A stretch of 19,598 nucleotides of DNA from the NCBI GenBank assembly GCA_902984215.1, contig CADWAF010000209.1, positions 1 through 19,598 on the forward strand. The letters run 5' to 3'. Below the pieces are notes generated by a model. That model saw nothing but the letters and a program-made list of their open reading frames with translations. It was not told where the DNA came from and made no database searches. The DNA is from Willaertia magna. Taxonomy: Eukaryota; Heterolobosea; Eutetramitea; Acrasida; Naegleriidae. Shown one piece after another: positions 1-19,598 of the stretch. Every line of letters begins with the position of its first letter. The stretch's first letter is position 1. The position numbers and the translations under genes are program-made.

Positions 1-10
1 CGTGTAAGAT

Positions 11-3000: not shown

Positions 3001-4130
3001 CTTGTACTTGCACGCCAGCTGTCTCCGTTTCATAAACGTGTTCTAATTGACCACCATATCTACTGACGTCAGTACTTGTACCTCCCATATCAAGACCTAT
3101 CACAGGAATCTTATCTTCTTCATTATAAGCAGTACTACTATAACCAACAACGCCACCTGCAGGTCCAGAAAGAATTGCTCTACAACCAATAAAATTAATT
3201 GCAGGAGTTAAACCACCATCACTTTGCATAAAAGTAACTAAATTTAATAACTTATTAAAATCTGAAAATCCATTACAAAAATTATTTACATAAGTTTTAA
3301 TAATTGGTGTTAAATAAGCATCAGCACATGTAGTTTGTCCACGCGGTACAACTCTAATCATTGGCATAATTTTATGTGACAATGAAACATTTCCAATACC
3401 AACTTCATTTGCAATTTCACCAATTAATAATTCATGTTCTGGATAAGTATAAGAATGTAATAAAACAACAGCAATACTATGAAATCCTTCTTTTAATAAA
3501 TTTAAACAAATTTCTTTCACATTTTCTTTATCAATTTCTTTCTTAATAAAAACTTCTTCACCTGAAATTCCAATTTTTAATTTTTTTTCATTTTCTTGAA
3601 ATTTTTTATTCTTTCCATAAACTTGTTCTGTCAAACATATTCTTTCATCTATTTCAATAACTTTATCATATAATAAAGAAGGTTTTTCAATAAATAAATC
3701 AAATATTTTAGGTCTTGATTGATTACCTATTTTTAAAAGATCTTTAAATCCTTTTGTTGTAATTAATGCACATTTAGATCCTTTTCTTTCTAATAATGCA
3801 TTTGTGGCAACTGTTGTACCCATTCTTATTTCTTCAATTAAATCAATATTAATTTCTTTTGCTGATTTCATATTTAATCCTAATACTTTATTCATAATAC
3901 GTTTAATTCCTTTTTTTGTTGACAATTTTTAATTAAGATTAATAATACGAACCTTCTGTTGGAGCATCTTTATAATTTTGTGGATCTTCAGATAATAATT
4001 TCATTACTGTGAAACCTTCTTTTGTAGGTACTTCGGCATAGATATCTGTGAAGGTACCTCCACGATCAATTGAAAATCGGAATTTATTATTTGTTATTGT
4101 CTTCTTTTCAATCTCTTCTTCATTGAGCAT
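11..4130 (-). CDS. 5-oxoprolinase (ATP-hydrolysing), five exons
   Basis: Converts 5-oxo-L-proline to L-glutamate with ATP in the cytosolic glutathione (gamma-glutamyl) cycle. I place exons at 4130-3953, 3909-2474, 2426-583, 529-462 and 408-11; these sum to 3924 nt (1307 aa), close to eukaryotic OPLAH/OXP1 (about 1290 aa). All four introns (43, 47, 53 and 53 nt) preserve the frame. The order is hydantoinase/oxoprolinase A (N-terminal part with DRGGTFTD at residues 22-29, then [10 protein letters not shown] near 331) followed by hydantoinase B from about residue 765, including GGTHLPD and the glycine-rich C-terminal end GGGGYGK. Joins such as DAPTEG/IKRI, HSGIL/SAYGL, ASQG/CMNN and GGSG/AGEG reproduce family blocks. 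The start is the ATG at 4130, preceded by an A-run. The first intron has an unusual 5' site, GTTCGT. Function and exon structure are well supported. Confidence 0.95.
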
Positions 4131-4389
4131 TTTTTTTTGTGTTGAAGAAATTGGCGATCCTTTTTCTGCTTGTACGTGATTGCAAGCGGCGAGTTGTTTT
4201 AAAGCCTAAAGAACGTCCATTGTGCTGCGGTAGCAATAATTGAATCTTTACAGGTTATTTTGTTAGAAATTTGTAAGAAATCAGCTGCAATAACAATACT
4301 TTTACAAAGTTATAATTTTGTGGTTGTAAGTTTAGTTCTCAGTGGGGCACTTTAGCTTGTCTTAACACGTGGAATGCTACACTTTTTCA

Positions 4390-4428
4390 GTGCACTTTGG
4401 AAAAATGATTGCTTAGAAAAAGTGCACC
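4390..4428. promoter_or_regulatory. paired GTGCACTTT elements, facing each other
   Basis: GTGCACTTTGG lies at 4390-4400 and its near reverse complement AAAGTGCACC at 4419-4428, about 240-280 nt upstream of the paralogue-1 ATG. A degenerate copy (GGGGCACTTT) occurs near 4344. The same GGTGCACTTT string occurs at 15830-15839 upstream of paralogue 2. A shared regulator binding site is possible; the sequence shows only the repeated word. Confidence 0.35.
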
Positions 4429-4445
4429 ATTCAAACATTTGAATG
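4428..4445. repeat. perfect 8-bp inverted repeat with 2-nt spacer
   Basis: CATTCAAA at 4428-4435 is followed by CA and then TTTGAATG at 4438-4445. It overlaps the last base of the adjacent GTGCACC element. The symmetry suits a dimeric DNA-binding protein, but no known operator is recognised. Confidence 0.5.
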
Positions 4446-4670
4446 TAGAAAATCATTCTGCTTTAATAACCTTGTTAAATATGTTGGAGTAAAAAAAGTG
4501 TCAGTCTTATACCTTTACTAAATTTCCTTCATTAACTTCTTACTTCATTTCCTTCATTCCTTTCATTCGTTAAATTCAAATTGCAGGTATATAGTAGTAT
4601 TTATAATACAAATATAATACAATAAGAAAGTGTTATTCCTTTATCTCCATCACTTCAATATTTGAAAGAA

Positions 4671-5915
4671 ATGTCAGTGCCACGACCTACGATTTGTCAT
4701 TTATCTAATGAGAATGAAAATCATACATGTGACCTTACATGCGCTTTGGTAAAAGAATTACTTTCTTCAGAACAGGTATTTAATGTTGATGACTCGAACG
4801 AAGTAAATAACATTGTGAACAGTGCAGGACAATTAACCCAAAGTAACACTTGTGAATTAAATCAAACATGTGACTTTCTTAATGGCTACAGTCAACCTTC
4901 ACTTCTCGAACAACGTGGCGAAACGTCAATGTTTTTAAATACTGAGGAAAGTCTGTTTGAATATTTCTCCAGAAACGTAGAAAAACACAGTTTGCCTCTC
5001 CTCACAAATAACCTCTCGGGTCATTATCCAACAAATAACTGTATTAAAACAAATACAATTTCATTGGATGGTATTAGCAGATTAACATCATCGAGGGAGG
5101 TCGTATCTGTTGGGAGTAGTAGTGGTGAGAATGAAAATGTAAACTTGTTTTCTACACCTGAGGGATTGTCAAACGGCGACACTATACCTGCTACGTCCCG
5201 CAGAACACTACAAGATCCTGAAGAACAAATTATGTTTTTACTTACAGTCCCTAACCCTACGAATTTAAACCCTTACCACTCACATGAAAAGTTAGTACAA
5301 TTTTACTTTTCTAATTGCGCTGAAATTCCATTGAAATTTAAATCGCTTTCGTTTGTCACGTCAACAGTTTTAATTTCATGTAATCCAGGTTTCACAAAAT
5401 GTAATAAGAAGAAGCCTACGAGACTGTCAGTTTTCGTAAAAGACGAAATAACTATCCATCTTCCACTTCCGCAAGACCAAAATCTTGTGAATTATTTCTT
5501 TCAAAACTATTCTGTTGAATTAATGTCTATTCTCCAAGTCAATTGCTATGAATTCTATGAAGAGGATTTAGATTTCACTGTCGTTGAATTTAAAAAAACT
5601 TTGGCATCACAAGCAAAAATTAATGTTGAAAATAATACTGCCACAATAGTTGTTCCTATAAAAAGAGACAACTCAACCAAAAGAAAGAAAAGAAAGGAAG
5701 CAAAGAAAACTGTTAAGGTAGAGGAATCTGAAAAGCAATGCAAGGGAGAAAAGAAAATAAGCTTTGTTCAAATTGTAGATTTTGAAGGAAATCTGTTAGG
5801 TAGATCTGAATGTTTCTGGAGTAGGAGCAAGAGTAGAATTGAAATGGAAAAGAAGAAGGGAAAAAAGTCTAGAGGTGATAATAATGATAATAATTCTGTT
5901 ACCCCAGCAGAGTAA
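4671..5915 (+). CDS. putative nuclear DNA-binding/regulatory protein, paralogue 1
   Basis: A 414-aa protein starting at the ATG at 4671; the in-frame TTG at 4662 is not a credible eukaryotic start. Residues 1-230 are low in recognisable structure and rich in Ser, Asn and Thr. Residues 237-400 form a core clearly homologous to the gene at 13868-15472. It contains CNPxFxKC followed by PTRLSVFV, an acidic/aromatic middle, KRDNSTK joined to a basic tract KRKKRKEAKK (about 337-346, a likely nuclear localisation signal), then FVQIVDFEGNLLGRSECFW (from 365) and a Lys-rich tail. I do not recognise a named domain. Ser/Asn-rich N-terminus, NLS-like tract and a small beta-rich core suggest a transcription factor, but that is inference. 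No intron is seen. It is transcribed divergently from the 5-oxoprolinase and converges with the CCDC162-like gene, whose stop is 48 nt away. Confidence 0.85.
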   Translation: MSVPRPTICHLSNENENHTCDLTCALVKELLSSEQVFNVDDSNEVNNIVNSAGQLTQSNTCELNQTCDFLNGYSQPSLLEQRGETSMFLNTEESLFEYFSRNVEKHSLPLLTNNLSGHYPTNNCIKTNTISLDGISRLTSSREVVSVGSSSGENENVNLFSTPEGLSNGDTIPATSRRTLQDPEEQIMFLLTVPNPTNLNPYHSHEKLVQFYFSNCAEIPLKFKSLSFVTSTVLISCNPGFTKCNKKKPTRLSVFVKDEITIHLPLPQDQNLVNYFFQNYSVELMSILQVNCYEFYEEDLDFTVVEFKKTLASQAKINVENNTATIVVPIKRDNSTKRKKRKEAKKTVKVEESEKQCKGEKKISFVQIVDFEGNLLGRSECFWSRSKSRIEMEKKKGKKSRGDNNDNNSVTPAE

Positions 5916-5963
5916 CTTTATTCCTTTGTATCGTCTAAAATAAATTGATGCAGTAGACAATCA

Positions 5964-8900
5964 TTATTTGTCTTCATCTATTTTTGATGTTGAGGACGTG
6001 CGTTTTATTCCAGCAGAAAGAGCTCGCCTCTGTAAAGTCAAAGAATTACTGCTTGGAGTTTTCACAGGTTTCTTAATTGTGTTATTATAATTTGGTAATA
6101 CGGTAATTGGCCTTGTTGGAAGAATTGGTGTATGTAAGGAAGAAGGAGGTTTTGAAGCTCGGGAACTGGAGACAGTAGTTGGCCTGGATTTCCTTCCTGG
6201 TGTTGTGGTTGTTGTATTGTTGGTTAGTTGAAGTACTGACGAAGTTTCAGCAGATATTGGTCTTAATACAGTAGACGACTTCCTAACAAGCGACAATTCG
6301 TTAATCAGAGAAGAATTTTGCTTGAATAAAGGTGTATCAGTTCTTTCATCCAATTCAATTGGAACGATTATGCCAGATTTTTCTATATAGTTTTTTAGCA
6401 GTAAAATTTCTTTTTGGTACGAAGACAACTCTTCCATTGCGCTCCAATATCGAGATTGCCAAACTCCCTCGCTTTCAATATCAGATTTTTGTCCCTTTGT
6501 TTCAGATAGTTGTTTCATAACTTTGTTCTTTAATTTTTGCTCTTGTAACAGTTTCTTTTTTAGTGAATCAATAGTTTTTTGAGACTTTATCTCCACTGCA
6601 TTTGTTTTTTCCTTTATACGCTCTTTCAATTTAGAATATTGTTCTGCTTCTCTTTTCTTTTCTTCTAGCTCTAACAGTAATTTATCAACATTGGTGTGAC
6701 TCCATCGTTCATACTTTTCTACTTTAACCTCCAGTTCGTCCAACAATTGAGCGTTTTTAACTTTCCAATTTACTAATTTTTGTTTGTTTTTAATTTGTAA
6801 CTGAAGATCTTTTCTCAACTGTTCTACTTCCATCTCAGCATTACTTAATTGTTGTTGTGTTTTAATTAATTCCTGCCTCAATTGATTTTCTCTTAAACCA
6901 ACTTCATACTTAGAACTATAAAGTTCTTTTAGGGCCTCATCTCTCTTTTTCTCTGATTCACGAATTAATTTGTCGTATTTAGCCTCCAAACTTGCTAGCT
7001 TTAGTTTCTGTAATATTTGTAACTGTTTATACTGTATATTTAAATCTTCATTTTCCCTTCTCAAACTATTAACCTCATTGTCTTCTATTATAACTTCCAA
7101 TGCCTTCTTTTTAAGTGTTAAATCTCCAACGTCTTGTTGGTTTACAATATCCAATAAGGTGCTCTCTTTTACTTCTATAAACTTTTGATCTAAGTTTCTT
7201 AGAACATCCTTTTTATACTGAGCAACTTTTCCATTAGCAGCAATTAACTCTTTATACAAAGCTCTTACGAGGTCTTCATACTCTATCACTAAGTGTTTCC
7301 TTACTTCACTTTTTACAGTTCTATTTTTATTCTCCAATTCTTTGTTTTGCATTAAAAGTGTGTTCACCAAAAACACTAAATCATAATTCCTGTCATCTAC
7401 TTCTGCCTCAATCCTTCTCCTTAATGATTTTCTGTCAATATCTCTTTTGTACAAAAGGTACTTTACTTTTTGTTCCTCAATAAAAAAATTTCTTTTGATT
7501 TTCTCTATTAAATTATTACTAGTCTTCTCCAAAAATTGTAATTGTTCATGCTTCCATTGTTGTAATTTTTGACCTGTTTGTTCTAATGCTCTTTCGAACT
7601 CTTTTTCAGAAACAGTTATCAAAACTTCTCCATTTTTCGTTTTAGTTCTATTGATATTCTTTGATATAATAGATAAGAAATTATGGAATATTTCTAATTT
7701 CCCGTCACTATTAATTAAATCATATTCATCCTCAGATTCTTTCTTTGATTTTCTAGTCTCTTTCCTTAAAACATTACATACATCCTTTAATTCCTGTATC
7801 GCATTAATTATTAAAATTTTACTAATTTCATTCCCCAAAACCTTAATTTGTTTTTGCCTAAATTCTTTTTCTCTTTTTTTCTTGGGTCTCTGTAGAGATG
7901 CTGCTTCATACACCTCATGAGAGTCGTGATATTGTTGCTTTTCTTGCTCTTTTTGAGCTGCTATCATTGCACCTCTAATTTCCTTCTCATATATTCGCTT
8001 AGCTTTTTTCTTGATAGTTGAACTGTACAGTTCATCCATCTTCTCTTCATCTTGCAGCATGTATTTCGCATTATCACAACTTAATTGCAGAAAATTCTCT
8101 CTCATTAACATTGTCACCATTGAAAATTTAGCAAATTCTAATTGAGAAGAAACTGATTGCTCCGGCATGCTGGTTGCGTACAACTTTTCTTCAGTTAACA
8201 CCTCATCAAATAGCAAAGATACCGCTATACTTTCAGCAGAATAATAATTCCTTTCAGGTTCATTTAACTTAAATAAAAATCTATTCAAAATTTTAAGAGG
8301 TACAGAGTGAACGTTAATTGTATCTAATCCATCATATTTGATGCGTCTTTCTTTGCTCAGATGAGCACTAAGAATTGCAAATACGTCTTCGTCATAACAA
8401 TAACTCTTCTTAGGCACATTCATTAATCCATTCATGTATTCTTCAACAAATGTGCCTGCAGCAAAATTGGACTCTCTTCTAAATTTATGTTTCACGCTAT
8501 CTAAAGCTAATATACATTTGTAATATAACAATTCACATTTGTTGGATAAAAATTCAATAACTGAAGGTGTATTTTCTGGTTGTCTTAAATGATCCAGTTC
8601 AGCACACAACCCCCTTACTTGTTCATACAAAGTATTTTCTAAACCAAATCCCTCATTGGAAGCGACACCAACAAGAGGAACTACAGTTTGTAACTCAACA
8701 CACCAAAATTTCGTTATTAAGTAATTCCTTTGCAATATTTTAAGCAAAGAGTGCAATGAATCAAAATTATTATTTTCTTCTTCCTCTGGTATAAAATCTA
8801 AGGTGAGTATTTGGACAAAATGCGGTATATATGTTACATTAACAACTTCTCCATCCTTTGCTAGTATACATTTATTTAAACTATCCTTGGAATCTGTTGG

Positions 8901-11900
8901 CAATTTTTGAGTCATAAATCTAGCAGAAACTTGAACTCTGTGATCAGGTTTCCCAATACCAAACCCTGTCGTACCTTCTACTGTAGATAAGAGATGTCTA
9001 AAATCTCTTAGAATATTCATTATCTGTACTTTAAATACAAATGGTTGTATAGACTTCATTATGGATTGACAATATTGTTCAGCTAATCTAAATTTTAGCT
9101 CTCTCAAATGCTTTCTAATCATGTTAGGCCTTTTTCCTTGGATTATACCGTCAGACATCTTCTGGTACTCTTTTAAAATTACTTGTCTTATTGGAATTTT
9201 TATAGTGTTAAGAAGAATAAAATAATCTTGTACATCCTCTTTGGAGAGATGTGTGACCTTGTGTTCATCAGATATATTGTTAGTATTCATTGCAGTAAGG
9301 AAGAATTCATTTGTTTCTTGACCAATATAGTAATCATCTAAAGGAACTTGATTGTAACGAACAGATACTTGGAGTAATATTCTTTGAACTAATTGGAATT
9401 GATATATTCTACGTAATTCTCCCAAACCAACATTGTGTAATAATCTTTTGATTCCCTCTAAAGTATTTAAATTAAGCTCAGCCATTGAATTGTCAAATTC
9501 TACAATAGCTAAATTTGTCAAAAATTGAGTTCTCACAGAAACAACTTCAGAAGTTTTGTAGCTTTCTACATCAGTTTCAAGATGGTAAATAGTATTCTCG
9601 GTTTCAAAATTAATTGGATTTAGAACTGCTCCAACCTTTTGAGTTGTTCCAACAACTTGACCTTGATATACGTATATATTACTCAAAACATCTGTCTCGT
9701 ACAATTCTTGTGTTAAACCCCTCCATAAAGTAATCATTTCAATAAGATTGGAATAATATTGTAAAGCTCTTGAATCAGATTCAGAAATGAAAAATCCACC
9801 TTCTGTTTCCCTTAATGCGTCGTCTCCATCCTGTCCCAAAACTAAAAACTCGGACTGTTGTATTCCCTTTTCCTCATTTATCAACTCTTGAACGCATGCA
9901 ATCACTTCACAAGGATCCTCCATTATAATGTTATCCTCAACAGCTATTCTTTCTTCTACCAATCTTTGTTGAACAGTTTTTTGAACTTTTTCTTCTTTGG
10001 TTAACAGTTTCCACTCAACTATGGACTGCTGTAAGATTGTCCTTCTAATAGCGTTTACTGCCAAAACATTAGAAAATTTAAAACCGTTAATTATTTCATT
10101 TACACTGGATTCTACCATCTCGTGAAGTCTGCCAATAATAGATAAAGAAGTGTAAAAATCCAAAATACTAGTTCTATATGATCCAGGAAATAGTTCAATC
10201 TGAAGGTATTTGTCATCAATAGTGTTGTCTGGAATTCCACTAGTTTCAGATTTAGTTTTGTCTAATGATTTGTGTATTGAATTCAAAAACTCCTTTTCGT
10301 CCTTCATTTGATCCTTAATAATATCCCTAAGTAAACTATGGTACAGTTCTAAACAAATTATTTCAGATGCATAACTTTCAGAAAAATAGTGTGCCTCCAT
10401 GTTTAACTTTGGAGTTTTATGCATTATATTTATAATTATTTGGGCCAGTCTTTTTCTTTCCTTTGGTTCATAGCAATGTTCGTAAGCCTCCATAAAACAA
10501 TCAATTACTTTTCTTTTTGAATCTTGGAACCATGTTTCGCTTTCGTATAAGCCCTCCAAAACCATAAATCTATCCACCTGAAAATATTTAAAATGTTCTA
10601 AATTTTTAAGTATAAAGTAAGAACCTATTTTCAACAATCTTTCCTCAGTATTTTCAAAATCTTTGATTGCAGCATCATATAATATCTTTAGACCGTTGGC
10701 ATCTTTTATGATTATGTCACGTTTTAAGTGTAAAGAATATATGTCTTCTTTTTTAGTAATATTTAGAGGTAAATTATTACTACTTTCTATCTTTTCTATA
10801 TCGTCAGGCTTTGTGTAATATAATTTAATATAGCTAGGGGAACTAGACTTTGTAGCGCAACCAACTTGATCGTAATATAATCTTTTTTCTATAGATCTAA
10901 AATAATTAAGTATATCCAATAATTTTCTTTTAAATTCTCTAATTCTAATATATCTAAGCAAGTATATAGCGGCAATCTTATTTACAGAACCTTTTCCCCC
11001 CTCAATTTTATTAATTTCTTCTTCGGACATATTAGATGACTTTTCTCTTTCTGATATTTGTCCCTCATTTAAATATGGCTGTACCTCCTCTTCTACATTG
11101 GCCCTACGAAAGTGTGTATCAGCTTGTTCTTTTAAACGTTTTCTTGCATATTGCAACTCATTAGTATGGAGAAACCCAGCTTCCACTTGAAGTTGTGAAT
11201 CAAGTCGTTGTTGATTGAATATTATGCCTTGTTTTTCACAAATGGAATCAATTTCAGGTTTAATTATCTGTTGTTCGTTTACCCAAGTCGCTTCTTTCAA
11301 GTAAGTTATATTTTCTGCAGTTAGTTCCAGCTTTTTTTCTTTTAGATCTGTATTTTCAACACTATCCTTGTAAGGGTAAGGAAGAATTTTTAATTTTGCA
11401 CTCTGAGCCTTAAATATAGCGTCAAATCTATTCCTTACTACATATAAAAACTCCTGGCCTGTTTCTTCAGAAGGAGTTTTTTTTATCTCTACACAATCTT
11501 TTAAATTTTCCAACTGATCGTCTATCTCTTTCTTTGAAGTAGTTATTGCAGGTGCAGTAACATCACTATTCTGTTGAAATTCAAACGTCTTCTTAAATAA
11601 ATTATATCTGTCACTATAGCAAAGCCATTTCACTTTTGTTGTAAAAAGATCCAATTTCTTTCTGGTTCTTAAATCGTACAATTGTTTCCGTATTATAACG
11701 TGAAAATCATTAAGCTTAATGATATTCTTTTCCTTTTCTTCGGTGGTTTTTAACATTTTCAATTCATTCAGTCTAGCGGAAGTCTTTTCATATTCTTTTT
11801 CAATTTCTCTTACCCTAATTTTATACAATCCTTCTACTCTTTCTATTATTTCAGAATTATCTGAGTATTTATGATATCTATTTACAATACTTGCATATTT

Positions 11901-12728
11901 TAGTTTCAATGTCTGTTTCCAATATGTATAAAAAGAAATGATAAAATTCTCCATATATTCCTTTGTGTTTTTTGGCTCTAAGCAAAATTGAACAACCTTT
12001 TCCAAGTGCTCATATTCAGGACGAGGAAAAGATAATGTTGGTATTTCTTTAAGTTTATGAATTAATTGTTTCCTCTCATTTCTGTAATCTAAAAAAGTTT
12101 TATGTAATATATCGTTTGAAACCGAACTAAAAGTAAATTTTTCTGGTTCTCTTGTAAGTAAGGAATTCCTTCCATCAATCAACTCATCCCTTTTCTTTTG
12201 AAGTTTTTCCAGTTCAAACTCTAGTAATACTTCTGATAATGTCACATCTTCAGTTGGGGGAGTGGCAAAAATTGGTTGATCAACTAGTGAATTGAAACCT
12301 ATATATTTTTTTTGTAATTCTTTTACAATTTTTACTTTATCTCTTTCAAACTCCTCTTCTTCTTCAATGATCATTTCATCACTATTTTCATTTGCCATTC
12401 CAACCTCCGATAAAACATTCGAAAGATTTATAGTTTTATCCAAACGGACTGATTCCTTTTGAGGGGTAACTTTCTGTTCTTCATTTTCTTCTAATAAGGC
12501 AGAAACTGCACTATTAGAATCTATAATTTGTACAACCGAAGAATACATAGAAGAGCTCATTTCTTTACCAGTAATCAGATTATTTCCATCATTATTCAAT
12601 GGTGATAACTTATTTCTAGATTCCCTTACACTTCTATCCGTTAAGCCTCCGTTATTACTGAATGAATTTGTTGATAGCAAAAGTGATTGAAAATTAGTTG
12701 ATCCTCTTACATCAATGCTTTTCCTCAT
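5964..12728 (-). CDS. CCDC162-like giant coiled-coil protein
   Basis: An uninterrupted 6765-nt reading frame (2254 aa) starting at the ATG at 12728; an in-frame TTG lies 21 nt upstream and is rejected as a start. Residues 1-130 are Ser/Asn-rich and then Glu-rich. The long middle (about 150-1550) is helical and fits the CCDC162 (DUF4549-type) family, including FFISESDSRALQYY near residue 977 and a following stretch rich in conserved aromatic and hydrophobic positions. Long coiled coils occupy about 1570-2085, with heptad-like Glu/Lys/Leu patterns. The last 100 residues are Ser/Thr/Pro/Arg-rich and basic, the kind of tail often seen in microtubule-associated proteins. CCDC162-type proteins are found mainly in organisms with cilia or flagella, so an axonemal or basal-body role is likely but inferred. 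The start codon is only 60 nt from the LZIC stop upstream. The ORF is certain; the family name is from memory of its general pattern. Confidence 0.8.
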   Translation of the reverse strand: MRKSIDVRGSTNFQSLLLSTNSFSNNGGLTDRSVRESRNKLSPLNNDGNNLITGKEMSSSMYSSVVQIIDSNSAVSALLEENEEQKVTPQKESVRLDKTINLSNVLSEVGMANENSDEMIIEEEEEFERDKVKIVKELQKKYIGFNSLVDQPIFATPPTEDVTLSEVLLEFELEKLQKKRDELIDGRNSLLTREPEKFTFSSVSNDILHKTFLDYRNERKQLIHKLKEIPTLSFPRPEYEHLEKVVQFCLEPKNTKEYMENFIISFYTYWKQTLKLKYASIVNRYHKYSDNSEIIERVEGLYKIRVREIEKEYEKTSARLNELKMLKTTEEKEKNIIKLNDFHVIIRKQLYDLRTRKKLDLFTTKVKWLCYSDRYNLFKKTFEFQQNSDVTAPAITTSKKEIDDQLENLKDCVEIKKTPSEETGQEFLYVVRNRFDAIFKAQSAKLKILPYPYKDSVENTDLKEKKLELTAENITYLKEATWVNEQQIIKPEIDSICEKQGIIFNQQRLDSQLQVEAGFLHTNELQYARKRLKEQADTHFRRANVEEEVQPYLNEGQISEREKSSNMSEEEINKIEGGKGSVNKIAAIYLLRYIRIREFKRKLLDILNYFRSIEKRLYYDQVGCATKSSSPSYIKLYYTKPDDIEKIESSNNLPLNITKKEDIYSLHLKRDIIIKDANGLKILYDAAIKDFENTEERLLKIGSYFILKNLEHFKYFQVDRFMVLEGLYESETWFQDSKRKVIDCFMEAYEHCYEPKERKRLAQIIINIMHKTPKLNMEAHYFSESYASEIICLELYHSLLRDIIKDQMKDEKEFLNSIHKSLDKTKSETSGIPDNTIDDKYLQIELFPGSYRTSILDFYTSLSIIGRLHEMVESSVNEIINGFKFSNVLAVNAIRRTILQQSIVEWKLLTKEEKVQKTVQQRLVEERIAVEDNIIMEDPCEVIACVQELINEEKGIQQSEFLVLGQDGDDALRETEGGFFISESDSRALQYYSNLIEMITLWRGLTQELYETDVLSNIYVYQGQVVGTTQKVGAVLNPINFETENTIYHLETDVESYKTSEVVSVRTQFLTNLAIVEFDNSMAELNLNTLEGIKRLLHNVGLGELRRIYQFQLVQRILLQVSVRYNQVPLDDYYIGQETNEFFLTAMNTNNISDEHKVTHLSKEDVQDYFILLNTIKIPIRQVILKEYQKMSDGIIQGKRPNMIRKHLRELKFRLAEQYCQSIMKSIQPFVFKVQIMNILRDFRHLLSTVEGTTGFGIGKPDHRVQVSARFMTQKLPTDSKDSLNKCILAKDGEVVNVTYIPHFVQILTLDFIPEEEENNNFDSLHSLLKILQRNYLITKFWCVELQTVVPLVGVASNEGFGLENTLYEQVRGLCAELDHLRQPENTPSVIEFLSNKCELLYYKCILALDSVKHKFRRESNFAAGTFVEEYMNGLMNVPKKSYCYDEDVFAILSAHLSKERRIKYDGLDTINVHSVPLKILNRFLFKLNEPERNYYSAESIAVSLLFDEVLTEEKLYATSMPEQSVSSQLEFAKFSMVTMLMRENFLQLSCDNAKYMLQDEEKMDELYSSTIKKKAKRIYEKEIRGAMIAAQKEQEKQQYHDSHEVYEAASLQRPKKKREKEFRQKQIKVLGNEISKILIINAIQELKDVCNVLRKETRKSKKESEDEYDLINSDGKLEIFHNFLSIISKNINRTKTKNGEVLITVSEKEFERALEQTGQKLQQWKHEQLQFLEKTSNNLIEKIKRNFFIEEQKVKYLLYKRDIDRKSLRRRIEAEVDDRNYDLVFLVNTLLMQNKELENKNRTVKSEVRKHLVIEYEDLVRALYKELIAANGKVAQYKKDVLRNLDQKFIEVKESTLLDIVNQQDVGDLTLKKKALEVIIEDNEVNSLRRENEDLNIQYKQLQILQKLKLASLEAKYDKLIRESEKKRDEALKELYSSKYEVGLRENQLRQELIKTQQQLSNAEMEVEQLRKDLQLQIKNKQKLVNWKVKNAQLLDELEVKVEKYERWSHTNVDKLLLELEEKKREAEQYSKLKERIKEKTNAVEIKSQKTIDSLKKKLLQEQKLKNKVMKQLSETKGQKSDIESEGVWQSRYWSAMEELSSYQKEILLLKNYIEKSGIIVPIELDERTDTPLFKQNSSLINELSLVRKSSTVLRPISAETSSVLQLTNNTTTTTPGRKSRPTTVSSSRASKPPSSLHTPILPTRPITVLPNYNNTIKKPVKTPSSNSLTLQRRALSAGIKRTSSTSKIDEDK

Positions 12729-12750
12729 TTTTTTATGTAAAGGATTCAAT

Positions 12751-12759
12751 TTTTGGCGG
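12751..12759 (+). promoter_or_regulatory. E2F-like site TTTTGGCGG
   Basis: The GC-rich word TTTTGGCGG stands out in the 60-nt AT-rich gap between the LZIC stop and the CCDC162-like ATG, ending 23 nt before that ATG on the coding strand. It resembles E2F/DP sites (TTTSGCG core). Position is suggestive; a single short match has little statistical weight. Confidence 0.2.
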
Positions 12760-12788
12760 TAAATTTTTCTGTTAATTAATTTGTTTTA

Positions 12789-13376
12789 TTATTTCTTTTT
12801 TTGAAGTAAATGATGAACACTTTGTTGTACATTAATACTTGAATCAAAATCATCATTATTATTGTTAGTATTGTTAGTAGTAGTTGTGGAAGAATTATCA
12901 AATAGACCTTTCATTTGGTTTGTCATATTTTGATTTAAAAATCGTAAATCATCTTCACTCAGCATACTTGGATTAAGTTTTCTTAAAGCACTTAATAATT
13001 CCGATTTCTTAAAATTATAAATTTCTTGGCCTATATGAGTTTTTTCTACTTCTAATTGTTCCAATTTAATTTTTATTTGATTAACATCTTTTTCTGCAAA
13101 TAATTTAATAACTTGAGGTGTTTTAAAAGCTTCACTACAAGCGGCTTTTATTGCTAATTGATAAGAACGAATTTCATCAATTTTTAAAGATTTATTTAAA
13201 TGTTCTAAAGTTTTTTGAAATTCTTCTAATTGAGAAAGTGTTTCTTTTTTAATTTCTAAATATTCTTCTTCACTATCTAATTCTTCCTTACAATCTTCTA
13301 CATCTTGTAATTGTTTCAATAATCTATCTAATTGTTGTTTTGTTTGTTGTTTAAGCTTTTCTTGTTCACTACTCAT
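12789..13376 (-). CDS. LZIC homologue (leucine zipper and ICAT domain protein)
   Basis: A 195-aa single-exon protein starting at the ATG at 13376. It aligns from end to end with animal LZIC (about 190 aa). An N-terminal coiled coil has QLDRLLKQLQDVEDCKEELD (residues 15-34) and the KKETLSQLEEF block. A middle block follows (QLAIKAACSEAFKTPQVIKL). The C-terminal ICAT-like part contains LSALRKLNP with EDDLRFL. The Asn/Thr-run and Gln-Lys tail after about residue 160 is lineage-specific. ICAT domains bind beta-catenin armadillo repeats in animals; LZIC itself is reported not to act like ICAT there and its role is poorly defined, so no partner is claimed. It lies on the same strand as the TM2 terminal exon (154 nt upstream) and the CCDC162-like gene (60 nt downstream). 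Confidence 0.9.
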   Translation of the reverse strand: MSSEQEKLKQQTKQQLDRLLKQLQDVEDCKEELDSEEEYLEIKKETLSQLEEFQKTLEHLNKSLKIDEIRSYQLAIKAACSEAFKTPQVIKLFAEKDVNQIKIKLEQLEVEKTHIGQEIYNFKKSELLSALRKLNPSMLSEDDLRFLNQNMTNQMKGLFDNSSTTTTNNTNNNNDDFDSSINVQQSVHHLLQKKK

Positions 13377-13530
13377 TTTTTGTTGAAAATTGATTAATTC
13401 ATTCTTCCATCAGCACAAACCCAAAAAGCAAAACAGTTTTTTACGTACGTAGATAGTTATTTGAAGAAAGAATAATAGATACTTTGAAAACGCAAATAAT
13501 AAAAATTATTAAAAGTTTATTATTGACTTT

Positions 13531-13851
13531 TTAAAAAGTCTTTTGTTCTGTAGTGGTTACAGTGACTTGCATTGGAGGTTGTTGTTGCATTGGTGGTTGT
13601 TGATAAGCTTCCATTGGTGGTGCAACATAACCTTGTGGTGGATAATATCCTTGTTGCATAGGTGGTGCTTGTACATATTGTGGTTGTTGCATTGGTGGAG
13701 CTTGAACATAACCTTGTTGAACATAAGGTTGTGGTTGTACATATTGTGGTTGTTGTTGAACAGTTGTTGTTTGTACAACTACTTGTTGTGTACCCTTTTC
13801 TCTCTTATTACATTCTTCAACCATCATTGGAATAAGAACTAAATCAATTAA
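13531..13851 (-). CDS. TM2-domain protein, C-terminal exon (exon 4)
   Basis: This exon begins after the acceptor ATTATAG at 13852 and runs 107 codons to a stop at 13531. It opens with LIDLVLIPMMVEE, the invariant end of a TM2 domain (IDLxLIP), and continues as a Pro/Gln/Tyr/Val-rich cytosolic-type tail with repeated units such as QAPPMQQPQYVQ and APPMQQGYYPPQGYV. Read alone it looks like a 98-aa low-complexity ORF from the ATG at 13827. The phase-0 acceptor and the TM2 ending show it is really the last exon of the gene whose exons 1-3 sit at 18400-18750. Joined, the protein is 154 aa: an 8-residue N-terminus, two membrane helices with the loop HRFYL, then the tail. TM2 proteins are small membrane proteins of uncertain function. 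The two halves are 4.5 kb apart here; see the repeat entries. Confidence 0.85.
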   Translation of the reverse strand, partial: LIDLVLIPMMVEECNKREKGTQQVVVQTTTVQQQPQYVQPQPYVQQGYVQAPPMQQPQYVQAPPMQQGYYPPQGYVAPPMEAYQQPPMQQQPPMQVTVTTTEQKTF

Positions 13852-13861
13852 CTATAATTAA

Positions 13862-13887
13862 TAGTTGTCAGCAATTAAAGAGATCAA
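13862..13887. repeat. 26-nt exact direct repeat X, copy 1 (junction)
   Basis: Identical to 18357-18382. This copy lies in the last intron of the TM2 gene: the 36 nt from 13887 down to the acceptor at 13852, plus 17 nt from 18399 down to 18383, make a normal 53-nt intron. It directly abuts the 25-nt repeat Y, sharing two A residues. The repeat is ordinary unique-looking intron sequence, not a transposon end. Confidence 0.95.
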
Positions 13888-15472
13888 GTATTGTCAATTT
13901 ATCATAAGACGACGACTCTTGAAAATGAATATTCTTACTAGTTGTGCTTTCCAATTTTGTAATCTTCTCCTTACCATTTGAATTTTCAAAATTTTGTTCT
14001 CTTTTTCTCTTAGTTTCGCTAACGGGTATAGAAGAAGAAGATGTAGAAGAAGAGCAGAATGAAATCCCCTCTGAACAAATCGTTTCATTAGTAGTTGATT
14101 TAGAATCACTTGAGGCATAATTATATTGTCTTTTCTTATTAAACTTCTTCTTATTATTCATTTCACTTTTCGTTTTGCTTCTTACCCAAAATGTTTCAGA
14201 TCTACCTAGAACATGACCTTCACTATTTACAATTTGAATGAAACATACTTTTCTTTCTCCCTTTGTAATTTCCTTTTGTTTTTCTTGTGGCACAGAAGCT
14301 ATTAATTGTTGTTTAGCTTCTTTCCTTTTCTTTAACTTAGTAGTGTTGTCTCTCTTAATTGCAACAATAATATCTAATATAGAACTATCTTTTCTATTTG
14401 GTCTAATTTCATATAGTGGACTGCTTTGCTCCAGTAAAGTATAATTTAAATTATCGTTATATAATTCCATGTCACTCTTAATTAAAAGCGTTCTTAATTC
14501 AACTTTATATTCTTGAGTTAAATAAGTGGAAAGACTACTGTCTGAAGGGAGTGGAAACTGTATGGAAATATAGTTGTTGACAAACACTGATAATCTAGTT
14601 GGGTTGTTGTTACTGCATTTCTCAAATTGTGGATTGCACTTTATCTCGATAATTGATTGAACAAAATCTTTTTGTTTTGAATCTTGTGAAATTTTTGAAA
14701 AATCATTAATCAGACAATCTTGTAGCTGCTTGTGGAGTCCTGACATAGAATTCTCTTCACTGATTAACATTGGAGAATTATTAAGGAAAAAGGATAGTTG
14801 TAATTGCTCTTCGGTAATTGAACTATTTGTACTTTCTTTCTTACTGGCAACAGACATGCAATCATTATTGATTTCTTGTATTGTGATTGCTGGAATGGTA
14901 TTCCCTATTGCATGTGGTTCATGTTCTGGAGATTTTAGGTCATTACATGCCAAGGATGGGGTAGTTGATCTATAAGGAACATGTCTATTGTTTAAACGTC
15001 TAACGCCATTAAGTTGAATGACATTACTCAAAACTTGATGGTTAATAGGTTGACTATCAACCGAGGAGGAATTTTCAGCATTATTTTCTGTACATGCGAT
15101 TATACATGGTTCATTATTTATATTTGTTAAATGTTTAGATGTAATACATGCACAAAGGGTATCTACATGATCTTTTTCTTCGTCTTTCAAAAAGTCAAAA
15201 GTTTCTTCTTCGAAATAGTTTTGAAAGTTAGATGTGGCACATGTATACCAATCTTCATCAGGGATACAACTTGACACATTTAACATGTCTAAGAAGGACA
15301 GATCACCTTCATTATGTAAGCGTTGGTAATAGACATTATTTCCTAATAGTTGTTGTTGATTGGGGATTGTGGTGGGATAAGAAAATAACGAGTTTTCTAA
15401 CCAATTAATAGCATCCCCATTTAAATTAAAGTTGCTGTTGTTATTATTGTTATTATTCATGCTATTGTTCAT
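13868..15472 (-). CDS. putative nuclear DNA-binding/regulatory protein, paralogue 2 (3' end chimeric)
   Basis: A 534-aa frame from the ATG at 15472. It begins with a poly-Asn stretch (about residues 5-13). Its core (about 279-440) matches the protein at 4671-5915: CNPQFEKC at 279-286 followed by PTRLSVFV, KRDNTTK with a KKRKEAK basic tract, and FIQIVNSEGHVLGRSETFW (from 411) ending in RSKTKSEM. A Ser-rich stretch and a second basic patch follow. No named domain is recognised; a transcription factor is the best guess. The last residues DLFNC and the stop are read from repeat X, which belongs to the TM2 intron, so they are probably not real. The true C-terminus is most likely the piece at 19469-19597, which continues the same frame after SYDKLTIL and gives about 563 aa. 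Confidence 0.85.
   Translation of the reverse strand: MNNSMNNNNNNNSNFNLNGDAINWLENSLFSYPTTIPNQQQLLGNNVYYQRLHNEGDLSFLDMLNVSSCIPDEDWYTCATSNFQNYFEEETFDFLKDEEKDHVDTLCACITSKHLTNINNEPCIIACTENNAENSSSVDSQPINHQVLSNVIQLNGVRRLNNRHVPYRSTTPSLACNDLKSPEHEPHAIGNTIPAITIQEINNDCMSVASKKESTNSSITEEQLQLSFFLNNSPMLISEENSMSGLHKQLQDCLINDFSKISQDSKQKDFVQSIIEIKCNPQFEKCSNNNPTRLSVFVNNYISIQFPLPSDSSLSTYLTQEYKVELRTLLIKSDMELYNDNLNYTLLEQSSPLYEIRPNRKDSSILDIIVAIKRDNTTKLKKRKEAKQQLIASVPQEKQKEITKGERKVCFIQIVNSEGHVLGRSETFWVRSKTKSEMNNKKKFNKKRQYNYASSDSKSTTNETICSEGISFCSSSTSSSSIPVSETKRKREQNFENSNGKEKITKLESTTSKNIHFQESSSYDKLTILDLFNC
13886..13910. repeat. 25-nt exact repeat Y, copy 1 (junction)
   Basis: Identical to 19574-19598, the last bases of the window. 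It encodes SYDKLTIL on the minus strand in both places, in the same frame. Identity stops exactly where this copy meets repeat X and where the other copy meets the window end. Confidence 0.95.
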
Positions 15473-16075
15473 AGTAAAGTACTAAACCTTCCAGTTATAC
15501 TGCTATTTTATTTGTGTGAAATCAGTCAGACGCCGAGGTAATTATCAGCTATCACTTTCTATGGAAACCGTAAAATTGCTTTTGGCTGAAGATGTTGATA
15601 GAAATGTGTTTTATAGAAGTCGAAAGGGCTTTTTCTTTGTAACTAGAACTGTTTCTTCAAAAGGTTTGCGTTGGTGGTGTCAATAAATATAATTTTTTCG
15701 TTGTATCAAAAGTCTTAAAAGTTTTGCAAAGCAAGGAGGTAACTGTTACTGTCTATTGGCTTTTAAATTAATTTTTTAATTCTATACATTAATGAGAACG
15801 TGTTGCCTCTTCTTATAGTGTTTTCTCATGGTGCACTTTGACTGGTTAGGAGTAATTGTGCCAACAAAGATATCAATAACTCACAAATACGTAGCATTTT
15901 TCCTTGTTCCTATGGACTTATTTGGGGCTAATAAAGATAAGCAGGACTATTGGATTTAAAACATTTCAAAACGCTACCATTGTAGTGCAAATCTTAAATA
16001 ATTATCTTAATTGTTGTTTGTTGTTCAGAACTTTTGTTCAGAACTTGCCTTAAAATAAATATAATTAAATATTTA
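15473..16075. promoter_or_regulatory. 603-nt intergenic region upstream of paralogue 2
   Basis: Holds the presumed promoter of paralogue 2 and the 3' flank of the glucosidase gene, both on the minus strand. No credible ORF is seen. GGTGCACTTT at 15830-15839 matches elements upstream of paralogue 1. A perfect 13-nt tandem duplication lies at 16021-16046. An AATAAA-type polyadenylation word lies just past the glucosidase stop near 16070. Confidence 0.4.
16021..16046. repeat. 13-nt perfect tandem duplication
   Basis: TTGTTCAGAACTT occurs twice back to back (16021-16033 and 16034-16046) in the 3' flank of the glucosidase gene. It is probably replication slippage. Confidence 0.8.
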
Positions 16076-18356
16076 TTATTGCAGAGCTATTTTACAAGGA
16101 GAGGCACACGTTTGAAGAGCATTTGAAGATAATGATTGCGTTTTGAATTTGTCTTTCAATTCGAATGACTGTCCGTTGACATTAGTTTTCATCACAACAT
16201 TAACTAATTGTTGAGGATTGTTGATGGATGTTCCATCAAATGAAATATCAAAAACAGCTCCTTGATAACAAACACCTCTCAATTTCATTGCATTGACACC
16301 AAGACCAATAAATGATTTTGGTTCAATTATCAAAGAATTATCTTGAACTCTCAATCCACCAAATCCATTGACAATACTTTGAATAAAACCTCCACTTCCA
16401 GTTAAGAAATTAAAACTACCCATATCTAAATAATGTTTATAAGGATTTGGAGTTTCTGTAAAGATATTAAAAGGTGATTGAATATTTAATAAAGATCTTT
16501 TAAAAGCATCATAAGCATTTGAATAATTTCCAACATCTAACCACGCAATTGTATTCATGCTAAAAGTCATTGCAGGACCATCAGGCCAAATATAACTTTG
16601 TTCAAAGATAACGTCATTTAAACGAACTTGTTTTGTCATATTTAATTGTAAAGGATATCCTAAAAGAACAATATCTGCTTGTTTAACGTAATCTAAGAAA
16701 TAAGTATTTCCTCTTGGGAAGTTATCATATTCGTAATGTCTTTGTTTTTGTGTATCAAATAGAATTGTTAATTTATCAGCAATTGTGTCAAATTCTGTAG
16801 TGATGGGTTTACCTAAAGTTCTTGCTGCCTTATTTGCAAATCTTAATGAAATTTGAGCAACAGCATTGGTAAATACTTCATCATTTACTCCACTATACAA
16901 AGGAAATCCAATACCTTTATTTCACAAATATGTCCATCAAATAAGGCATCAATCAAAAATTATAAAAATTATTAATTTCACTTACCAAATTCATCAGGAC
17001 CTACAACCTTTCTTATATGATATTTTCCATCATCCTTAGATAATACAACCCTACTTTTCCAAAATAAGGCAATTTGATAAGCAATAGGAAAACCAACCCT
17101 CTCCAACCACTTTTTATCTTTCGTTAAATTCCAATATAATTCTAAAGCAAACCCAATATCACCTGTAATGTGTTGCTCTAATTCATTAAATAAAGCAATT
17201 AAATCGACTTCCCTTCCAGAAAAACCAGTTTGAAAAGGATACATAGCTCCTTCATATTTATAATGTTTTGCGTGATTTAAAGCTTGTTCTAATCTTTCGA
17301 AACGATATTCTAATAAAGTTTTTGCAAAATCTGGATATAAGTAAGCTAAAGAGGGCAAAACAAAAACTTCTTGATCCCAAAAGACAAGACCTTGATAGGC
17401 GTTGGTACTTATTCCACCAGGTGAGACACCAGCGAAATAGTCAGTTCTTATTGCGCTAAGTAGATAATATAAGGTGCTATTGATTTGTAAAGCTAATTGT
17501 GGATTTCCTTCAATTTCTATACCATGTTGCCAAATGTCATTCCATAATTTAATATGTGATTGATATAAATCATCACTTGATAGGGAAGATGCCTTTTTAA
17601 AATCCATTTCTGCATCTTGCAATGGATTATTAGAATCAATTGATGATCTAATAGTTGTAAAAAATAAAAAGGATTGTTTTGTATTCGATTTTACAGAAAT
17701 ACTTGATGGAACGTTTGACGTGACAAGTGAAACATTTACTTGTAAACTATCTGGAGTTTCTAAACGTGTTAATTGACCTTCCATACAAATAGCATTATTA
17801 TTTAATTTACAATTCACAGAATGAAAGGAAATATCTTTACTTGGTGAACTTTCTTTTCTTAATAAATTAAAACTAACATCTTCCTTATTTTGTAAATTAT
17901 CAATTATAATTTCGTGGATTAATAAAGAACGAAATTGTCTATGCGCGTAATATCTTTGTTCAATAAGTGTTTCATTATTTAATAAATATCTTCTTAAATA
18001 CATTGCTCTTTCTAAATCTAATGCTGATCCAATTAAATTTAATGGTTTTTGTTGTAAATTTTTTTGTAAATTTGTAGATTGAAAAATGTCAATATTCATT
18101 GTTGATGGAATTCTAGCTCTTTCACTATGAAATCCAATTAATTTTTCAATAAAAGTTAATTTACCAACATAAATTAATCCAACATAAATAGAATCACTAT
18201 CAATAACAGTTCCTAAATAACCATTACTGATTGAAGGTAAAAAGTTTTTATCTGTTGGTTCTTGTTTAACAAAAATTAAATTTCCTTCTTTCATTCGTTG
18301 TTCCCAATTATTGTTTTCATTATTTGAATATTTATTTGTCAAATTAATTTTTGAAT
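16076..18356 (-). CDS. GH65-family glucosidase (PGGHG/ATHL1-like), 5' partial, two exons
   Basis: Exons at 18356-16986 and 16914-16076 are joined by a 71-nt GTAAGT...AAAG intron that restores DEFGIGFPLYSGVNDEV. About 735 residues are visible, against 737 in human PGGHG, so little is missing. Landmarks are SNGYLG and ERARIPS in the N-terminal sandwich, GLVFWDQE (the GH65-type WDxE block, near visible residue 320), EQHITGDIGFALE, GPDEF and then SGVNDEVFTNAVAQISLRFA. In PGGHG the Asp of FWD and the Glu of PDE belong to the carboxylates reported as catalytic; both are present. PGGHG removes glucose from glucosyl-galactosyl-hydroxylysine; GH65 relatives also act on trehalose-type disaccharides, so the protist substrate is open. 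No start or signal peptide is visible. The frame upstream of 18357 runs into repeat X, begins at a non-ATG codon after a stop, and no acceptor AG exists there. Sequence beyond 18356 therefore does not belong to this gene. Confidence 0.85.
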
Positions 18357-18382
18357 TAGTTGTCAGCAATTAAAGAGATCAA
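18357..18382. repeat. 26-nt exact direct repeat X, copy 2 (junction)
   Basis: Identical to 13862-13887 with mismatches immediately on both sides. On one side lies the truncated glucosidase gene, on the other the first 17 nt of the TM2 intron, beginning with the donor GTAAGT. The glucosidase 5' end and the TM2 3' end are both lost exactly here, which marks an abnormal junction. Confidence 0.95.
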
Positions 18383-18399
18383 ACAAAATCTTTACTTAC

Positions 18400-18750
18400 T
18401 TGACCAATTCCGCATAAACCAGCGGTACAGAAATAAATTATACCTAATATTGGGGAATCTAGGTAGAAACGGTGGAGACTATGGAGTTATTAATGATTAA
18501 TTGAAGAGGTAAGACGAACGTTCAATAATTTAGAAAGAGGTTAATACTTACCCAAAAAATCCAAAACAACACCCTAACCATAAAATGTATGCCTATTGTT
18601 GTAATTCATTGTTGGTGTTAATGATATGAATTATTGTCAAATGAATTTTTAAATGGAAAAAGTTCAACAAAATTTTGATTGAAATTTGAGTGTCAACAAA
18701 TTGTGTGACACAATAGTAATACTTACTGTTGCACTATCTTTAACTGCCAT
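18400..18750 (-). CDS. TM2-domain protein, exons 1-3 (N-terminal part)
   Basis: Exon 1 is 18750-18727 (ATG, MAVKDSAT), exon 2 is 18592-18552 (AYILWLGCCFGFFG) and exon 3 is 18478-18400 (LHRFYLDSPILG, then IIYFCTAGLCGIGQ). Introns of 134 and 73 nt both start GTAAGT and end AG, and the phases agree (0 and 2). Together these give the TM2 signature: first helix, HRFYL loop, second helix, and GIGQ just before the expected IDLxLIP. That ending is absent here. After the donor GTAAGT at 18399 only 17 nt remain before repeat X, with no acceptor before the glucosidase sequence. The ending lies at 13851-13531. With that exon the whole CDS is 465 nt (154 aa). None of these exons is long enough to stand out as an ORF; they were found by splice sites and family pattern. 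Confidence 0.85.
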
Positions 18751-18917
18751 TTTTTTGCTGAACGGTTTTATTGTTTTTATGCTGTGATGTGACTGCTTTT
18801 ATTTGTTTTGGGAAGTGGTTTGGTTCTTTTCTAATTCCACTTCAGAAATCGACTACCAATTACTTTCTACAAAATTTGCAAAATATACAAAATACTTTAT
18901 CGTTAGTTTGAAAACGA

Positions 18918-18992
18918 GCGTCTTTGGTCTAATGGTAGGGCGCCTGGTTTATCGGGAATCAGGAGATAGGGGTTCGAGTCCCCTAGGATGCA
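18918..18992 (+). tRNA. tRNA with 11-nt anticodon loop, identity unclear
   Basis: A 75-nt cloverleaf. Acceptor GCGTCTT pairs with AGGATGC (two wobble pairs). D-stem GTCT pairs with GGGC around a loop containing GG. T-arm AGGGG-TTCGAGT-CCCCT is perfect, and the discriminator is A. The A box (TGGTCTAATGG) and B box (GGTTCGAGTCC) are good, and a T6 terminator follows at about 19011. The anticodon arm is odd. CCTGG pairs with TCAGG, leaving TTTATCGGGAA (11 nt) instead of 7. A 7-bp stem with loop TATCGGG is also possible, but then position 33 is A, not U. Removing a 4-nt insert (ATCG or TATC) would leave a Pro-type loop (TGG or GGG). I cannot assign the amino acid; it could be a micro-intron tRNA or a decayed copy. 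Confidence 0.75.
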
Positions 18993-19010
18993 ACCTTTGT
19001 GAATAGATAG

Positions 19011-19016
19011 TTTTTT
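19011..19016 (+). terminator. RNA polymerase III T-run terminator
   Basis: TTTTTT lies about 19 nt past the tRNA discriminator base, the expected signal for pol III release. Confidence 0.65.
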
Positions 19017-19098
19017 GGGCAAAAAAAGTTATTTGATATTGAATGATTGAATAGGTAAACACTTCGCCGAAATTGTTGAAGTATTTTTTTTTAATAAA

Positions 19099-19119
19099 AT
19101 AAAAACAATTTGTTTTTAT
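19099..19119. repeat. 9-bp inverted repeat
   Basis: ATAAAAACA at 19099-19107, spacer ATT, TGTTTTTAT at 19111-19119. A short hairpin in AT-rich DNA; no function is assigned. Confidence 0.5.
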
Positions 19120-19158
19120 AAACGAAATGTTTTAATAAAAACAAAAAATAAAAACAAT

Positions 19159-19208
19159 TTTTAAAACAAAAATAAAATACTATATATTTATTAATTTTTG
19201 TTTTAAAA
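19159..19208. repeat. 15-bp perfect inverted repeat, 20-nt loop
   Basis: TTTTAAAACAAAAAT at 19159-19173 pairs with ATTTTTGTTTTAAAA at 19194-19208. It may be chance in such biased sequence, a cruciform, or the remnant of a small mobile element; no coding capacity is associated. Confidence 0.5.
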
Positions 19209-19468
19209 TTAATTATAAATTTCTTCATCCCTTAGTTCTTGCACTTTTTTAAGTTTTAAATAAAATTATTCAACTATTAAGCAAGCTCATACACAACTTT
19301 ACAAAAAATAAAAACAGAAAAAAAAAATAAAAACAAAAATAAAAAATAAAAATAAAAATTTTTTTACTGACATAAAAACAAATTAACACTAATTCAGTCT
19401 CTTTAGAAATTTCCATTTTTCATTTTAAAAAAAAGAATTCAGAGAAATAATATTAAACTATAGAAGTT

Positions 19469-19598
19469 TTATTGGTTTTTTAAGGTATTTTGTGTGCCCA
19501 AAGCCATTATTTGTAAAAGGAAATCAGCCACAGCATTTGAAGGTTGATAAACTAAACCAGGCATTAAGGTATTAAGTATTGTCAATTTATCATAAGAC
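19469..19598 (-). CDS. orphan C-terminal coding piece, most likely the true end of paralogue 2
   Basis: An open frame enters from the window edge and reads SYDKLTIL, then NTLMPGLVYQPSNAVADF, then a Leu/Ile-rich stretch ending LGTQNTLKNQ and a TAA at 19471-19469. The first eight residues and their DNA are identical to the end of the paralogue-2 frame at 13887-13910, in the same phase. Placing this piece after 13911 therefore extends paralogue 2 by 34 residues and replaces its suspicious DLFNC ending. It has no similarity to the C-terminus of paralogue 1. It is too short to identify alone. Confidence 0.7.
   Translation of the reverse strand, partial: SYDKLTILNTLMPGLVYQPSNAVADFLLQIMALGTQNTLKNQ
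19574..19598. repeat. 25-nt exact repeat Y, copy 2 (window end)
   Basis: Identical to 13886-13910. The match runs to the very last base of the window, as expected when a contig ends in an unresolved overlap with another block. Confidence 0.95.

Follow-up and report, generated by a model that had tools for sequence, protein, structure and literature searches.

A question raised by contig C55 of Willaertia magna, a free-living amoeba of the Naegleriidae within Heterolobosea, is whether the blocks at its right end stand in the order in which the genome carries them. The window analysed here is the whole of this contig (19,598 bp), which comes from the same species as the W. magna assemblies, as the first exon of its glucosidase-like gene confirms with identity at 458 of 458 aligned residues. 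Published drafts of the species are fragmented into 4,505 contigs over 36.6 Mb for strain C2c Maky (PMC6892926) and 1,239 contigs over 47.6 Mb for strain T5(S)44 (PMC11702301). Judged by the sequence and its homologues, the right end of C55 has almost certainly been assembled in the wrong order, so that ordinary genes appear split by an error and not by a biological rearrangement. Within this conclusion, a relocation-type assembly error with the native order U1 - X - U3 - Y - U2 (Table 1) is very probably the right description. The relocation call for C55 rests on homologues and gene structure, and it is these that carry the argument below.

Two short direct repeats, X and Y, are the starting point, and the original prediction had taken both as exact and as marking the joints. 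This was borne out by direct comparison, with 26 of 26 positions identical between the copies of X (13862-13887 and 18357-18382) and 25 of 25 between those of Y (13886-13910 and 19574-19598), the left copies having the AA at 13886-13887 in common. It had also described X and Y as intron and coding sequence of the unique type, in agreement with an exact pattern search over 19,240,052 bases on 894 contigs, which returned two matches for X and two for Y, all within C55, and none for the backward control. Apart from X and Y, the window contains a single exact direct repeat that reaches 18 nt or more, at 13669/13735, within a Q/P-rich coding repeat of the TM2 gene. Across 100 order-3 Markov sequences of the window's length the longest exact direct repeat measured 14-19 nt, and the expectation from base composition is 1.6e-6 pairs at 26 nt and 5.5e-6 pairs at 25 nt. 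Because the window is the whole of C55, the right copy of Y at 19598 lies at a true contig end, so that what had been noticed as the end of the sequence proves to be the contig's own end. At joint 1, the other copy of X goes on at 18383, and 19573 is the base before the other copy of Y; owing to the AA overlap, any position between 13885/13886 and 13887/13888, both included, could be the cut. Measured from the corresponding side of joint 1, joint 2 and the contig end are each some 25 nt away, and a rough random-placement estimate puts the chance of both placements at about 7e-6. The joint sequences are otherwise unique in the 894 contigs, and one of them is at a contig end.

Table 1. Blocks, joints, repeats and genes at the right end of contig C55
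Feature	Position	Strand	Remark
Block U1 = piece A	1..13887		Ends with X; TM2 exon 4 at right edge
Block U2 = piece C	13911..18356		Paralogue 2 body and glucosidase gene
Block U3 = piece B minus its X, plus right Y copy	18383..19598		Inferred native place between X and 13911
Joint 1, held to be false	13886..13887		X passes into Y via the common AA
Joint 2, held to be false	18356..18357		Crosses codon of glucosidase residue 36; upstream written residues mismatch the intact protein
Repeat X, left copy	13862..13887		Exact 26 nt; inside TM2 intron 3 after block reordering
Repeat X, right copy	18357..18382		Exact 26 nt; piece B begins here
Repeat Y, left copy	13886..13910		Exact 25 nt; paralogue 2 coding sequence (SYDKLTIL, by translation)
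Repeat Y, right copy	19574..19598		Exact 25 nt; flush with contig end
TM2 exon 4 (LIDLVLIPMMV... to stop)	13531..13851	-	Open reading frame; TM2 homologues run on across the join
TM2 exons 1-3, introns 1 and 2, first 17 nt of intron 3	18383..18750	-	ATG begins at 18750; exon 3 ends at 18400
Paralogue 2 body	13911..15472	-	Written protein ends with DLFNC-stop, five residues absent from the paralogue
Paralogue 2 3' end	19469..19598	-	Y-coded residues, 34 more and stop (19469-19471)
Glucosidase-like gene (GH65, PF03632), two exons	16076..18356	-	Without the first 35 residues of P0001
tRNA-Arg (TCG)	18918..18992	+	ARAGORN; Rfam RF00005, 52.1 bits

The first gene that bears on the order encodes a TM2 protein, which had been reported as split in the written sequence and as repaired by moving U3. 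Both points hold. As written, exons 1-3 and exon 4 lie in separate blocks, and intron 3 would be 4548 nt long and enclose paralogue 2 and the truncated glucosidase gene. After reordering, the gene on the minus strand has three introns (134, 73 and 53 nt), each of the form GTAAGT..AG, and encodes a protein of 154 aa; intron 3 is then a GT-AG intron in phase 0, whose 53 nt are made up of 17 + 26 + 10. We used three TM2 homologues for comparison, P0061 and P0062 from W. magna and P0063 from Naegleria gruberi. Exons 1-3 align up to residues 47, 46 and 46 of these proteins, respectively, and exon 4 resumes at residues 48, 47 and 47, so the homologues bridge the two blocks. The joined protein matches PF05154 with 57.6 bits (cut-off 27.9, E 1.4e-15) over profile positions 3-51 of 51, across the join, and the reordered gene thus qualifies as one for a TM2-domain protein. 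The 48 residues left of the join already reach 53.7 bits and position 45 of 51; since most of the profile score is gained on that side, it is the protein homologues that carry the argument for the TM2 join. The W. magna ABK040 annotation returned no close TM2 orthologue, its best matches being two proteins of 54% and 57% identity on other contigs, and the gene may therefore be unannotated, mis-modelled or absent there.

The second gene is paralogue 2. Its written C-terminus, SYDKLTIL-DLFNC-stop, had been called alien, and rightly so, as DLFNC is not found in the full-length paralogue P0060 (ABK040_011493), which ends with DKLTVINSLMPGLVFQPSNEVAEFLLKIMSKTTQ. When the gene is read instead from the contig end, the protein continues as SYDKLTIL-NTLMPGLVYQPSNAVADFLLQIMALGTQNTLKNQ-stop, an in-frame extension of exactly 34 residues past the part encoded by Y, as expected from the original prediction. 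A six-frame search of the assembly of C55 with P0060 as query places its residues 4-512 at 13883-15463 (-) and its residues 506-539 at 19490-19591 (-), the latter at 71% identity and E 5.4e-8. Against P0060, the 34-residue tail reaches a score of 102, a value attained by none of 2000 shuffled tails (maximum 46). The joined paralogue 2 aligns to the last residue of P0060, whereas the written version stops at residue 512. Paralogue 2 also matches ABK040_012642 (P0059, 323 aa) with 96% identity over 60% of the query, the ABK040 model of this gene being itself cut at 323 aa.

The family to which this protein belongs has some further features. Its two members in C55, at 5199-5942 (+) and 13883-15472 (-), lie in opposite orientation and contain an inverted DNA repeat of 74% identity (5742-5858/14147-14263). 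Searches of Pfam and of PDB sequences gave nothing above cut-off for the family, the PH match of P0060 reaching 15.9 bits where the cut-off is 25.1. Of 5969 candidates in a protein search, only two passed E <= 0.001, both of them from W. magna, and in the assembly of C55 the family has nine matching stretches at E <= 0.01 on seven contigs, the weakest two with 28-33% identity; the family is possibly lineage-specific. The P0060 gene is likewise broken in the assembly of C55, where contig C239 (C239:1-1467) starts within it at residue 489, and the last 50 residues of P0060 were not found on another of the 894 contigs, save for the 71% match in C55.

The third gene, encoding a glucosidase, tests joint 2. 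Compared with its W. magna counterpart ABK040_012641 (P0001, 771 aa), its second exon agrees at 277 of 279 aligned residues, and its first exon covers P0001 residues 36 to 493 without a mismatch. The codon of residue 36 straddles 18356/18357, and residues 1-35 are missing from the window; upstream of this joint the written frame offers a stop followed by LLTT alone, with no ATG. The gene had been noted as lacking a start, and the comparison agrees in that the joint removes 35 N-terminal residues relative to P0001. The missing N-terminus was sought in 894 contigs, a possibly incomplete set, and only the truncated copy in the window was found, in keeping with the expectation that reordering would leave this gene truncated. 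Because residues 1-35 are missing past joint 2, the true continuation of U2 is absent from contig C55.

Taken together, the adjacencies as written are contradicted by P0060, by the TM2 proteins and by P0001, and a single reordering makes two broken genes, TM2 and paralogue 2, whole. The order U1-U3-U2 proposed at the outset is therefore supported by P0060 and by P0061, P0062 and P0063 across the new joins, and by P0001 against 18356/18357. The consecutive locus tags ABK040_012641 (glucosidase) and 012642 (paralogue 2) were considered as evidence on the order and set aside, since both genes lie inside U2 and their tag order does not discriminate between block orders. As DNA, the native adjacencies were not found elsewhere, X and Y being present among the 894 contigs only in their two window copies each.

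How such an order could arise may be explained by three neighbouring pieces, A (1-13887), B (18357-19598) and C (about 13886-18356), which would natively overlap by about 25 nt, A with B via X and B with C via Y, and which would have been joined A-C-B instead of A-B-C. If the pieces were butted with only about 2 bases of incidental overlap, X and Y would both be retained as exact direct repeats, with B ending at the contig end. We infer both the existence of A, B and C in the assembler and their mis-ordering by a scaffolding or gap-closing step. The impression that X and Y look like overlap artefacts is best accounted for by such overlaps between mis-ordered pieces, presumably left by a software step of this kind. 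The situation is like the relocation misassembly class of QUAST, as outlined in PMC4776351, in that pieces of the same region are misjoined on the same strand and gene models are broken at the joints; it is unlike that class, as outlined there, in that the displaced piece of C55 is only about 1.2 kb and both terminal overlaps are kept.

A real structural allele in the sequenced culture, either a 1.2-kb deletion or a duplicated and rearranged copy, which removes the tRNA-Arg and joins the TM2 locus to that of paralogue 2 beside an intact form, would be the biological counterpart of this reading, and we regard it as very unlikely. In its deletion form, joint 1 would be real, the 1.2-kb U3 having been lost via the 2-nt AA microhomology in one haplotype or subpopulation, and the path with U3 intact, bearing short flanks from the assembly graph, would have been falsely appended at joint 2. 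Such an allele would lack the first three TM2 exons, the tail of paralogue 2 and the tRNA gene. The AA common to both sides at joint 1 fits this idea, two alleles that fork and rejoin would likewise give U3 short flanks X and Y, and the amino-acid differences from ABK040 show that there is variation within the species. However, this account requires a damaging deletion allele as well as a false junction at 18356, X and Y have no further copies among the 894 contigs, and joint 2 conflicts with the intact glucosidase regardless and so would still be false. For these reasons the deletion allele appears highly unlikely.

Another possibility is that X-U3-Y-U2 was duplicated in tandem and the first of the two copies then lost its U3, the contig breaking off at the start of the second U2. 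This would likewise yield two copies of X, two of Y and a contig end at Y. It predicts, however, a second U2, and DNA searches with 50 bases from the left edge of U2 and 200 bases from the right edge report the window only, although such a search has little power for matches near 25 nt (it missed the other copies of X and Y) and a collapsed repeat would look alike. Moreover, the edges of the deletion and of the duplication must coincide within 26 nt by chance, a 4.4-kb repeat would normally not be bridged by short-insert data, and three genes are broken in the written copy. In a genuine rearrangement the genes at the new joints would be expected whole, or whole elsewhere; here the TM2 gene is split, paralogue 2 has a foreign end and the glucosidase is startless. 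The duplication is thus extremely unlikely, in line with the view of the original prediction that a rearrangement with duplicated flanks was the lesser alternative. That X and Y are chance matches, or meaningful short repeats such as recombination or target-site motifs, is scarcely credible at all: although the two are exact and of similar length, they exceed in length the repeats of all 100 Markov sequences, and X is unlike Y, one being intronic and the other coding, with neither found elsewhere in the 19.24 Mb.

With mis-ordered pieces as the preferred reading, annotation of C55 as written would show the TM2 gene as split, give paralogue 2 a wrong C-terminus, leave the glucosidase startless and record a false gene order. 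The case indicates that short exact repeats occurring in pairs, with one abutting the contig end, can expose a mis-ordered draft contig from its letters alone, and that the repair can be tested with homologues and without reads. The result is a correction of a draft assembly, and its biological interest is low. The contig was unmentioned in a literature search covering titles and abstract openings.

Other contigs were surveyed for similar terminal repeats. All four other ends compared (C55 start, C57 end, C500 end and C239 start) were unique in the 894 contigs, which are possibly part of the assembly. A survey of 12 of the 894 contigs, C55 included, was restricted to direct repeats after those with a 3-mer entropy of <=3.3 had been dropped; it detected complex direct terminal repeats of 20 nt or longer in none of the seven other whole contigs and in one of four partly read contigs, C800, where the repeat lies within a longer diverged duplication. 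Internal repeats only were found in C50, C57 and C500. Given the four unique ends and the seven whole contigs lacking such a repeat, no genome-wide habit of 25-nt end overlaps is claimed. The C2c Maky genome was assembled with CLC at a word size of 64 and with GapFiller (PMC6892926); the idea that a single assembler setting accounts for X and Y was abandoned, since a word size of 64 does not by itself predict repeats of 25-26 nt.

Several side observations were made in the same sequences. In the first 10 kb of C800 (C800:1-10000), a diverged direct duplication of about 0.7 kb begins at base 1 with an offset of 6177 and contains exact runs of up to 210 nt, and a 53-nt repeat starting at base 1 lies inside it. 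An exact 25-nt match between C239:2943-2967 and C806:515-539 hints at a duplicated or allelic region. In C55 itself, 5964-12785 (-) is one open frame of 2273 residues, stop-free throughout.
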